A DNA stretch of 64,000 nt from Polystyrenella longa (GTDB lineage Bacteria > Planctomycetota > Planctomycetia > Planctomycetales > Planctomycetaceae). Within the stretch, counting starts at the first letter, position 1. Each line of letters opens with the position of its first letter. The stretch spans positions 1,945,001-2,009,000 of the forward strand of contig NZ_CP036281.1 in assembly GCF_007750395.1 (NCBI RefSeq), given 5' to 3'. Below are positions 28,431-34,285 of the stretch, piece by piece. Position numbers and translations under genes: made by a program. The notes below the pieces were generated by a model, which had not been told where the DNA came from, made no database searches, and saw nothing but the letters and a program-made list of their open reading frames with translations.

Positions 28431-28504
28431 GCACCCCTAGCTCAATTGGATAGAGCATCGGTCTACGGAACCGAAGGTTGGAGGTTCGAATCCTCCGGGG
28501 TGTA
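28431..28504 (+). tRNA. tRNA-Arg (anticodon ACG)
   Basis: 74-nt cloverleaf: acceptor gcacccc / ggggtgt with a G-U pair at position 1:72, D arm gctc-gagc, anticodon stem tcggt/accga around loop ctacgga (anticodon ACG), T arm ggagg-ttcgaat-cctcc, discriminator A; CCA is not encoded. The 3' part (from 28458) is identical to a 50-bp repeat at 34236, so this tRNA is the integration site of the element, which restores the tRNA 3' end on insertion. Confidence 0.95.
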
Positions 28505-29909
28505 CTCCGACAAAATAAGACTCTAGATGACAAAAGTCGTCTGGAGTCTTATTTTTTAGGGGTGTGATTGTGGGTGGTGCTGAATCGCTTGCAGGTGCCT
28601 CCAAGTCACTGGAAGACACGTCTGGACAGGAAAAGTCAGAATCTAGTGCAAGTATAAGGGCAAGGTTTTCGGTATCCGCTTGTACTAAGGGAACCGCTGG
28701 CAGGGCTTTCAAAGCAGAAGCTTGCTGATCCAGTTCGATGTGCGTGTACGTGTTCATTGTCAGATTAATGTCGGAGTGCCGTGCGAGTTGTTTCGCCACC
28801 TGGGGAGACACACCGGCGCGACTCAGATTGGAAATGAACGTATGCCGATTTGAATGGAAGTCAGCATAGTGCCCGTTGGAGTTGCAGTACTTCAGGAATT
28901 CAGACGCTTCCCGTCGTGCCGATTCTTCTGGAGTCGTGGCTTCTTCCAGCCATAGATTTCTAGCCAGCTCCAGGTCTTTAGCCATCATCTTGGCTGTATC
29001 CCGGAAATAACCTCTAGGGGTTTTCAGGATGAAGAGGATCGAGTCTGAACCAAGGTCAGCTTGTGTTGTCAGCCATTCTTTGAACGCAGCGACGACGGTG
29101 CTTTGGAGGGGGATTACATCCTTCTTTCGTCGCTTGCTGTAACCCGCTTGAACAGTGACCGTAGGAGATAGGGAATCGAGGTCAAACGACCTGAGGGTGA
29201 GAGAAGCCAGTTCGCCCCGTCTAAAGCCGGTCCACGCTGCTAGAATGTACAACATCGCCCGGTCGGGGCCTTCCATTCCTTCCACCTTGGGACCACGTCG
29301 AGCCGCTTGTACGAGCTTTTCCAGTTCTTCGGGGAGCAGGGCTCGTCGCTGGTGCCGCTGGTCTGTGTCGACATTGATTCGTTTTAAGTGCCGCAACGAA
29401 TTTTTATGGATGCGTTCGTTCGCTTCCAGCCAGGCACAGAATGTTTTGACCGCATCCTGATAGAAGTTGCTAGTACGATTCGAGAATCGTTTACTGGTCT
29501 TCCTCTGATTCGCCAACCATTGAACGACTTTCGATGCAGTGATATCCAGGACTCGCTTGAATTCGCATCCGGCGATTAGAGTTTCAATGCGCTTGATGGT
29601 CTGGGCAGTATGTTTCGGACTGCACCCTTTGCCCGCCAGGTAGACTTTGTAATCGTCCAGGTGATGCTTGATAGGCATCACAGCAAACGATTCTTTAGGA
29701 TCAGTTAGACCAGCCTGCACCCATTGTTCTTTCTTGATGATCTCGTTTAACATTGCCTGAGCCGCGGCTTTGTCGGTACAGAGAGGGACACGTTGTGTTT
29801 CTCCGTGTACATCTCTGTATTGACCGTACCATTTTTTGACGCTCTTAAGGGTCGGCTTTCCGGTCTTCGGATCTTTGGATGTGTATTTAGGTTTGAATAA
29901 GCTGGCCAT
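28437..29909 (-). CDS. Tyrosine recombinase (element integrase), C-terminus altered by integration
   Basis: 490 aa in the integrated state. An SAM-like N-terminal DNA-binding domain (~75-165) is followed by the catalytic domain with Arg230 (AWTGFRRGE), His352/Arg355 (HSNRHTF), His378 and the nucleophile Tyr388 (NTYTHI). A Pro/Ser/Asp-rich linker (~405-450) leads into residues ~468-484 (VHPGGFEPPTFGSVDR), which are the antisense of the tRNA/att core, and six more residues (CSIQLS) from the 5' half of tRNA-Arg, where the stop lies. In the excised circle the frame would instead continue from Arg484 into 64 codons at 34235-34044, giving 548 aa. A terminator hairpin lies inside the frame. Confidence 0.93.
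   Translation of the reverse strand: MASLFKPKYTSKDPKTGKPTLKSVKKWYGQYRDVHGETQRVPLCTDKAAAQAMLNEIIKKEQWVQAGLTDPKESFAVMPIKHHLDDYKVYLAGKGCSPKHTAQTIKRIETLIAGCEFKRVLDITASKVVQWLANQRKTSKRFSNRTSNFYQDAVKTFCAWLEANERIHKNSLRHLKRINVDTDQRHQRRALLPEELEKLVQAARRGPKVEGMEGPDRAMLYILAAWTGFRRGELASLTLRSFDLDSLSPTVTVQAGYSKRRKKDVIPLQSTVVAAFKEWLTTQADLGSDSILFILKTPRGYFRDTAKMMAKDLELARNLWLEEATTPEESARREASEFLKYCNSNGHYADFHSNRHTFISNLSRAGVSPQVAKQLARHSDINLTMNTYTHIELDQQASALKALPAVPLVQADTENLALILALDSDFSCPDVSSSDLEAPASDSAPPTITPLKNKTPDDFCHLESYFVGVHPGGFEPPTFGSVDRCSIQLS
28458..28507 (+). repeat. attL core repeat
   Basis: Fifty bases, from the anticodon stem of tRNA-Arg to 3 bases past the discriminator, identical to 34236-34285. It is both tRNA sequence (plus strand) and integrase codons ~468-484 (minus strand). 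Confidence 0.96.
28513..28557. terminator. Bidirectional terminator inside the integrase frame, after tRNA-Arg
   Basis: A long stem (aataagactctaga-tgac / gtc-gtctggagtcttatt) with an aaaa loop, followed by t-run on the plus strand and preceded by a-run so that it can work in both directions. It belongs to the element and gives the tRNA a new terminator after insertion. It also lies within integrase codons, so it may attenuate integrase mRNA. Confidence 0.82.
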
Positions 29910-29935
29910 TATCTGTCTGAATCCTTTTTAGAGAC

Positions 29936-30127
29936 TTACGGTTTTTTGCATCCGTTGTCTATCCATTCGATGATGTCCGTTGTTCTCCAGCGGACCAGCC
30001 GCCCAAGGTAAACCGGTTTCGGAAGCATCCCCCGAGCAATGTAACGCTGGAGCGTTCGCAGGGAGACTTTCAGTCTCTGGGCCAGTTCAGCCCGATCAAG
30101 TAGTTCATAATCATCCATTGATTTCAT
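29936..30127 (-). CDS. AlpA-like helix-turn-helix protein (excisionase/regulator)
   Basis: 63 aa from the ATG at 30127 (AAAGGA 9 bp upstream); an ATG at 30175 would add 16 residues. It is a single winged HTH of the HTH_17/AlpA type: ELLDRAELAQRLKVSLRTLQRYIARG, then a wing with YLGRLVRWRTTDIIEWID. Such proteins act as recombination directionality factors or transcription regulators. It lies 26 bp upstream of the integrase and 60 bp downstream of rep on the same strand, so the three may form one unit. Confidence 0.85.
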   Translation of the reverse strand: MKSMDDYELLDRAELAQRLKVSLRTLQRYIARGMLPKPVYLGRLVRWRTTDIIEWIDNGCKKP

Positions 30128-30187
30128 TTCGAATCCTTTCAACATGAAAACCGAACAAAAGTAAAAATGCAACACTCCTAAGAATAT

Positions 30188-33829: not shown

Positions 33830-33900
33830 CCGGTAACCACGTCTTCTATACAATCATGCAGACCTACAAATAATCGGTAACCACAATCAGTTTACCGCCC

Positions 33901-33935
33901 GGCGGCACAAGTCCTACTTGTGTCGCCTTTTTTTG
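33901..33935 (+). terminator. Terminator after the PLAT gene
   Basis: Stem ggcggcacaagt / acttgtgtcgcc (12 bp with one G-U) around a cct loop, then seven T. Two copies of cggtaaccac (33832 and 33872 region) precede it. Confidence 0.9.
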
Positions 33936-34040
33936 TTTTCGGTTCTGGTCGAAGTGAACTTCATCAATCGCCCGATAACACATTCCAGAAATTAAAGGGC
34001 TCGGAGATAGTTGAACTTGTACCGATCGATCGTTTTAGGA

Positions 34041-34235
34041 TTAATCTTCACTCATCATTAGCGAGAATATTCGTTTGATCGACATTGGTAAATTGTGCCA
34101 TCTATTAATAATTTTGTTTAGAAGCTGAACGTCTTTCTCTTGTAACTCGTAATTGTGGATGCAAGCATGAGGGCAAGCGGCTTCTTGTATAATCTGTAAG
34201 TCCTTGTCATTTAATGAGGTTACAAAATCCTCCGT
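34041..34235 (-). pseudogene. Detached integrase C-terminal segment (64 codons plus stop)
   Basis: Read on the minus strand from the att core in the integrase frame, the sequence stays open for 64 codons and stops with TAA at 34043-34041. It encodes TEDFVTSLNDKDLQIIQEAA, a Cys/His stretch, then LLNKIINRWHNLPMSIKRIF and SLMMSED. The closing W-x-x-L-P pattern resembles C-terminal tails of planctomycete tyrosine integrases as I recall them. It has no start of its own; it is in frame with the integrase only when attL and attR ends are joined in the circle. Confidence 0.8.
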
Positions 34236-34285
34236 TCGGTCTACGGAACCGAAGGTTGGAGGTTCGAATCCTCCGGGGTGTACTC
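34236..34285 (+). repeat. attR core repeat (displaced tRNA-Arg 3' half)
   Basis: Identical to 28458-28507. It is the original chromosomal 3' half of tRNA-Arg, cut from its 5' half by the insertion and directly followed by the native terminator. Confidence 0.96.

Follow-up and report, generated by a model that had tools for sequence, protein, structure and literature searches.

The window analysed here is a stretch of 64,000 nucleotides from Polystyrenella longa (GCF_007750395.1, NZ_CP036281.1:1,945,001-2,009,000, forward strand), whose genome comprises 6.13 Mb on a single contig. It contains an element of about 5.8 kb (28458-34285), integrated in a tRNA-Arg gene and bounded by two copies of an attachment core (Table 1). 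Next to the integrase gene (int) lies the gene of an excisionase-like protein that matches phrog_597 'DNA binding protein' (8e-13) and phrog_66 'excisionase and transcriptional regulator' (4e-11). It is followed by a replication-associated protein and by two further genes, in which the PLAT-domain gene is divergent from that of the ECF sigma factor. The element is smaller than its paired relatives, in which tail-to-int spacing ranges from 6.4 to 46 kb (32 pairs). Its small size, together with the G2P-like replication protein, points to possible replication as a small circle or as a filamentous-phage-like element. A search for the empty site in two other genomes of the genus, by sequence match alone, returned only matches of 45-55 bp.

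Table 1. Features of the integrated element and its tRNA target (positions in the window)
Feature	Position	Strand	Remarks
tRNA-Arg(ACG), target gene	28431-28505	+	ARAGORN; 3' part is the attachment core
int, integrated (short) form, 490 aa	28437-29909	-	PF00589 at residues 191-391
att core, int-side copy, in frame within int	28458-28507		exact direct repeat, 50 bp
int linker, catalytic part to core	28508-28694	-	equivalent linker disordered in model of relative L206
HTH_17 / excisionase-like protein, 79 aa	29936-30175	-	Pfam; candidate directionality factor
replication-associated protein (Phage_CRI / G2P-like), 472 aa	30188-31606	-	PF05144 4e-5, barely over cut-off
ECF sigma factor, cargo or regulator	32462-33076	-	PF07638 4e-28
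PLAT-domain protein, cargo	33275-33829	+	PF01477 5e-18
stranded C-terminal int tail, 64 codons + TAA	34041-34235	-	W-x-x-L-P motif
att core, far copy, displaced tRNA 3' end	34236-34285		exact direct repeat, 50 bp

The integrase gene runs through the core. From its ATG at 29909 to the end of the core at 28458 there are exactly 484 codons, with no stop ahead of the core, and the integrated form ends ...GGFEPPTFGSVDR-CSIQLS*, the final six codons being supplied by the antisense of the tRNA-Arg gene. When the frame is joined at the core, as in a circle, the crossover is frame-neutral: reading resumes at 34235 downward and stays open for 64 codons to the TAA at 34043-34041, giving a protein of 548 aa whose tail terminates ..NKIINRWHNLPMSIKRIFSLMMSED. 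The arrangement described in an earlier note on this DNA is thus reproduced to the base, as regards the in-frame position of the 50-bp core (28458-28507 = 34236-34285), the stop six codons beyond it inside the antisense of tRNA-Arg, and the open frame of the circle. When the local DNA is simulated with a first-order Markov model, 64 codons stay open in ~2% of trials, which makes the run modest evidence when taken alone; the alternative two frames past the junction stop after 4 and 8 codons. Significance comes from homologues rather than from length. The catalytic domain PF00589 is recognized with E = 2.7e-20, and R230, K259, H352, R355, H378 and Y388, presumably the catalytic R-K-HxxR-H-Y set, are invariant in 12/12 aligned rows.

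Two terminator-like hairpins flank the split tRNA on the + strand, one immediately 3' of tRNA-Arg (28506-28560, z = -9.6) and one on the other side (34284-34330, z = -9.3), so that codons of the int linker double as a replacement terminator for tRNA-Arg. A hairpin beside the tRNA as a general rule was dropped, z being below -2 for 9/31 tRNA genes at 29 related loci.

Homologues of the integrase occur in 73 of the 99 genomes searched, the source genome included. Among the 30 int loci listed, 22 have an int frame that enters the antisense of a tRNA gene as found by ARAGORN (Arg, Met, Ser, Lys, Glu, Leu, Cys or SeC). The other eight comprise one that overlaps a sense-oriented tRNA, one that ends short of its tRNA and six whose stretch has no tRNA. 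Cores were examined at 21 loci, namely the window and 20 stretches of at most 20 kb each. A tRNA core is present on both sides at eight of them (window + 7); at the other 13 the far core is absent within the stretch, and the partner tail could be located for six of these using more sequence. In six of the eight core-mapped elements the int frame reads through the core and on into a tail of 59-76 codons: the window (Arg), L035 (Met), L037 (Ser), L040 (Ser), L046 (Leu) and L047 (SeC). The far copy in L046 is a whole tRNA-Leu (ARAGORN), and the cores of L047 are not identical (score 43 over 70 nt). All six tails share the motif DL-x(6)-W-x-x-LP (D/E-x-L...W-x-x-L-P) and an amphipathic stretch. 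The two exceptions are L049, where int terminates ahead of the core, and L041 (genome G039), whose tail frame is open for 13 codons only (..KIIVDQWL*) and is perhaps the decayed tail of an old insertion.

Repeats with a spacing of ~10 bp (GTCCGAC-like, CCTCGATC-like) were noticed by eye within the int linker, close to the core on its inner side, for example in L173, L037 and L038; they are possible arm-type binding sites inside coding sequence.

A profile built from the six core-mapped tails was run on six-frame translations, blind to int. It matches 182 of the 297 genomes of the class (own included, E <= 0.01), and phylum-wide 16/149 genomes (own included) at the stricter E <= 1e-6; plasmid and phage collections yield six records and one, respectively, at 19-31% identity. 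The tail therefore has homologues, the lack of which the earlier note had named as fatal to its reading, and its suggestion that the arrangement is widespread is well supported by comparative sequence. Among the matches listed, the open frames carrying tails are mostly shorter than 300 codons, and no int match was found in the tail's own frame at any of 19 tail loci (E <= 1e-5), seven of these frames being 319-668 codons long.

The placement of tails relative to int was followed in 35 genomes searched with both profiles, which contain 93 tails. An int lies within 60 kb on the contig for 36 of them. In 33/36 the tail is upstream of int on the same strand and in none is it upstream on the opposite strand; two of the other three are just downstream on the same strand and one is downstream on the opposite strand. 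Int pieces of one gene were merged by hand before this count, and three int fragments, each more than 60 kb from listed tails, were excluded (G114:C1:8063950, G149:C1:6430053, G198:C7:355945). For the remaining 57/93 tails no int lies within this distance on the same contig, perhaps only as an effect of contig breaks, of distance or of thresholds.

Agreement of frame was scored for 37 of 39 pairs (L127 lacks an int C-terminus and L185 is fused). Where ARAGORN places a tRNA at the near core (24 pairs), 22 pairs keep the frame and reach the motif without a stop (P = 4e-9 versus 1/3); the six profile-building elements are excluded from this set, whose members are partly non-independent, several coming from one genome and L133 resembling L135. 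Removal of L089 (weak core, 16/22, tRNA in sense) and of L190 and L196, whose core extends beyond the tRNA into the linker, leaves 19/21. The 13 pairs without an ARAGORN tRNA (12 in frame, 10 open) are counted apart, because matches within homologous coding sequence hold the frame regardless. L016, a weak tail match beside int without tRNA match, enters no count. The pairs out of frame are L137, where the int match is fragmentary, L200/L201, with one stop in each of the L200 int and the L201 tail, and L129/L130, where L130 comprises two tails and an int fragment. In-frame tails, profile-building elements included, are found at eleven tRNA types: Arg, Met, Ser, Leu, SeC, Phe, Thr, Gly, Asn, Lys and Cys. 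In a set of 26 pairs (five from the profile-building elements, the rest being all but one of the 22 in-frame pairs) the core peptides are GFEP-like in 11, IRT-like in 11 and SNP-like in four, which covers all three tRNA-antisense frames; the agreement of frame is thus not dictated by the tRNA.

Natural junctions add to this picture. In L084, a locus of the Phycisphaeraceae genome bin G461 (L084, L232 and L233 on G461:C28), one tRNA-Met is occupied by a tandem of two elements in the order tail1, int1, tail2, int2, tRNA. The first int and its tail read through the core as EQQDSN(L/P)RPRDYESP and the second pair as SSRIRT(R/C)DRGIMSPL; int1 and the neighbouring tail2 are out of frame, as expected if every tail pairs with its own int. 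L206 is a viral contig of 43 kb, linear according to IMG/VR, in which the catalytic part, a tRNA-Arg-like 3' fragment and the tail form a single 573-codon frame, and no complete tRNA is present in the 21 kb examined. A second in-frame int-core-tail junction, L234, lies at a contig edge, with no complete tRNA within the stretch. Both could be tandem junctions instead of free attP. In L083 and L118, the int, the tRNA fragment and the tail are each in a different frame; by analogy with L084, the one locus where the tandem explanation is shown, they are probably tandem junctions as well. In L185 the tail is fused to the catalytic part without an intervening core, and the tmRNA gene downstream of int is taken to be its target. 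At L155 (G070:C115) a degenerate stretch resembling an int C-terminus was seen by eye in the tail frame upstream of the core peptide; it gives no int match at E <= 1e-5 and is perhaps a decayed junction.

These data bear on whether the tail might be an independent small gene at the element end, sharing its frame with int by chance. Start codons offer some room for it: an in-frame ATG lies between the core and the W in 6/26 tails and an ATG or GTG in 14/26, ATG being absent from the other 20 and both codons from 12. Set against the frame agreement of 22/24, the same-strand placement of 33/36, the matching frames of the tandem in G461 and the tails joined to their int in L185, L206 and L234, this explanation is extremely improbable.

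The tail behaves as a protein module. The pattern W-x-x-[LM]-[PSTA] occurs in 88/90 distinct tail matches and served to register the tail windows, so that the invariance of the W among these 88 is by construction; L is found in 87 of them, P in 82 and L at position -7 in 86. Next comes a stretch that looks like an amphipathic helix. The family consensus is PDLxxVVxAWPxLPxxIRxAILAMVxxA. Differences between tail DNAs fall on codon positions 1/2/3 at 30/20/50%, an excess at position 3 that is the pattern expected for protein-coding sequence, measured on 100 pairs of 70-80% nucleotide identity that were selected by that identity and are not independent. The distance from core to W varies between 33 and 62 codons in the 26 pairs. 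On the integrated side, int frames extend 3-987 nt beyond the core in the same pairs, a variation that leaves the short form without a conserved end. Searches of Pfam with three tails and of NCBIfam with one brought no family near the cut-off. The idea that the tail is a copy of the post-tyrosine helix was rejected: the two could be aligned together, but profile comparison gave 34% probability, out of register.

A structural view is provided by an AlphaFold2 model of L206, the relative folded in place of the window int (mean pLDDT 80, pTM 0.63; alignment of 33 rows, in which only L206 and L185 span both catalytic part and tail). It has a tyrosine recombinase fold, with Foldseek matches to XerA, Tn1549 Int, lambda Int and Cre. 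Residues 421-530, including the tRNA-encoded stretch, have pLDDT values almost all below 50, and the tail is predicted as two helices (538-549 and 552-569) with block means of 76-96. The modelled disordered linker that would set the tail apart is compatible with a tail that is autoinhibitory, or a stability or localization signal, the integrated short form being the more active one. This reading is rather improbable, as a hyperactive integrated form should cause the element to be lost, whereas integrated copies are in fact common.

The geometry at the locus, the agreement of frame element by element, the natural in-frame junctions and the coding-type constraint on the tail, all read from sequence, establish that the native int gene runs through attP and that integration substitutes host codons for the tail, in a layout conserved among relatives. 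Most probably the circle encodes the 548-aa integrase, and the module stranded by integration would serve the integrating form, so that the enzyme is altered by its own product. The claim of the earlier note that the integrase is long in the circle and short when integrated, with exchange only after the catalytic domain, is well supported at this level. Both forms would be made. In the circle, N-terminal DNA-binding parts and the catalytic part would be followed by a flexible linker, some of whose codons come from the tRNA 3' end read in antisense, and by the C-terminal module of two predicted helices. Integration into tRNA-Arg severs int at the core, leaving the catalytic part and linker by the regenerated tRNA, ending on arbitrary host codons, and the module stranded at the opposite end of the element; excision would rejoin them. 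The most likely role of the tail is in integration, where the module may help assembly or the synapsis of attP with attB. The short form would then either fall quiet or lean towards excision, which the excisionase-like protein encoded beside int could direct, and the direction switch proposed in the earlier note remains plausible.

Two other readings of the same geometry are each unlikely. According to one, SSV-like in outcome, the tail is required for all recombination, so that an integrated element could not excise unaided and leaves only with a full-length integrase from a new or tandem copy. The tandem array, the multi-tail loci and the decay seen in some integrated copies are in line with such locking, which has a low probability given that the catalytic domain is intact, in contrast to SSV, that the 57 tails without a nearby int may only stem from contig breaks, distance or thresholds, and that the Mx8 integrase is still active after integration, according to the accessible part of PMC6070905. 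According to the other, an attP in int merely keeps enzyme and site together, and a tail working in the circle is later lost without regulatory role; the fused tail of L185 and the differing reading frames of the core among elements fit this economy. It is about as probable as locking, and it leaves unexplained why attP lies between catalytic part and tail at eleven tRNA types.

A tail serving the integrating form remains the preferred reading, and a bolder version of it can be put forward tentatively, with a chance of holding that falls somewhat short of even. The module, not recognised before, would be a sensor of the free versus the integrated state, kept in integrases across the phylum, attached in the circle only, needed for integration and removed by the very reaction it promotes. 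Tandem insertion would re-attach a neighbour's module when frames agree and thereby re-arm a locked element.

As far as searched, the conserved tail family, its spread and the eleven tRNA types are new, the principle being already known from phage Mx8. A full-text literature search, with subscription papers mostly outside its coverage, found no description of the arrangement in Planctomycetota. Taken together, the tail family and Mx8 show that, in a bacterial phylum, it is common for the integrase gene to be altered by integration. They offer a possible explanation for integrases with tRNA-antisense endings (GGFEPPT-like) and for short orphan frames, and gene finders run on integrated copies would register the shortened protein only. 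The tail further allows the far end of mobile elements to be recognised at the protein level, and comparing the same enzyme with and without its tail makes direction control directly testable.

In conventional tRNA-targeting tyrosine integrases the core is the tRNA 3' end and int adjoins the junction. Their int stops before the core, as in the relative L049, whereas the window int crosses it. The integrase IntP of Myxococcus phage Mx8 was reportedly the subject of primary studies by Tojo in 1996 and Magrini in 1999. In the Mx8 record, the int frame carries an antisense stretch of a tRNA 3' end (..TGLEPVLLGSFYANPRQLP.., residue 417 of 533), with a 28-nt match to tRNA-Asp (E 1e-4). The accessible text of PMC6070905 places attP within int and states that integration creates a new int 3' end. 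The window and its relatives share with Mx8 the attP in the int reading frame and the exchange of the C-terminus on integration with the catalytic domain left whole. They differ in their tail, which is not homologous (the tail profile has no match in Mx8 Int at E <= 0.05), and in their hosts, the Mx8 host belonging to Myxococcota and the present elements occupying eleven tRNA types in Planctomycetota. The earlier note, which presented the locus as a bacterial case of an SSV-like split, was right about the geometry; a bacterial precedent, Mx8, which it did not name, exists.

The archaeal systems offer a second comparison. The Islander article, in its accessible part, states that Mx8 and SSV integrases reach across attP (PMC4383910), and the corresponding part of an archaeal review terms gene-disrupting recombinases exclusively archaeal (PMC8371274). 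As described there, the 'suicidal' integrases of SSV1, pTN3 and pT26-2 resemble the present one in having the recombination target, often a tRNA sequence, in the integrase gene, which is split (PMC8371274). According to the same text (PMC8371274), their catalytic part is parted from the N-terminal part and their domain is PF16795, whereas here the parts stay joined and the domain is PF00589. No PF16795 (Phage_integr_3) is detected in the window int, where PF00589 is the sole domain at E <= 0.1 and lies entire within the integrated form (residues 191-391 of 490 aa), so that the SSV-type separation of the catalytic part does not occur. The likeness to SSV drawn in the earlier note thus extends to the position of attP in int and ends at the catalytic domain, which stays whole. 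In mycobacteriophage BPs, attP reportedly lies in the repressor gene and integration is said to alter the end of the repressor. BPs displays integration-dependent immunity, as stated in the accessible part of PMC4557955. The two systems have in common an attP within a gene, so that integration changes the end of a protein; in BPs this protein is reportedly a repressor, whereas here it is the integrase itself.
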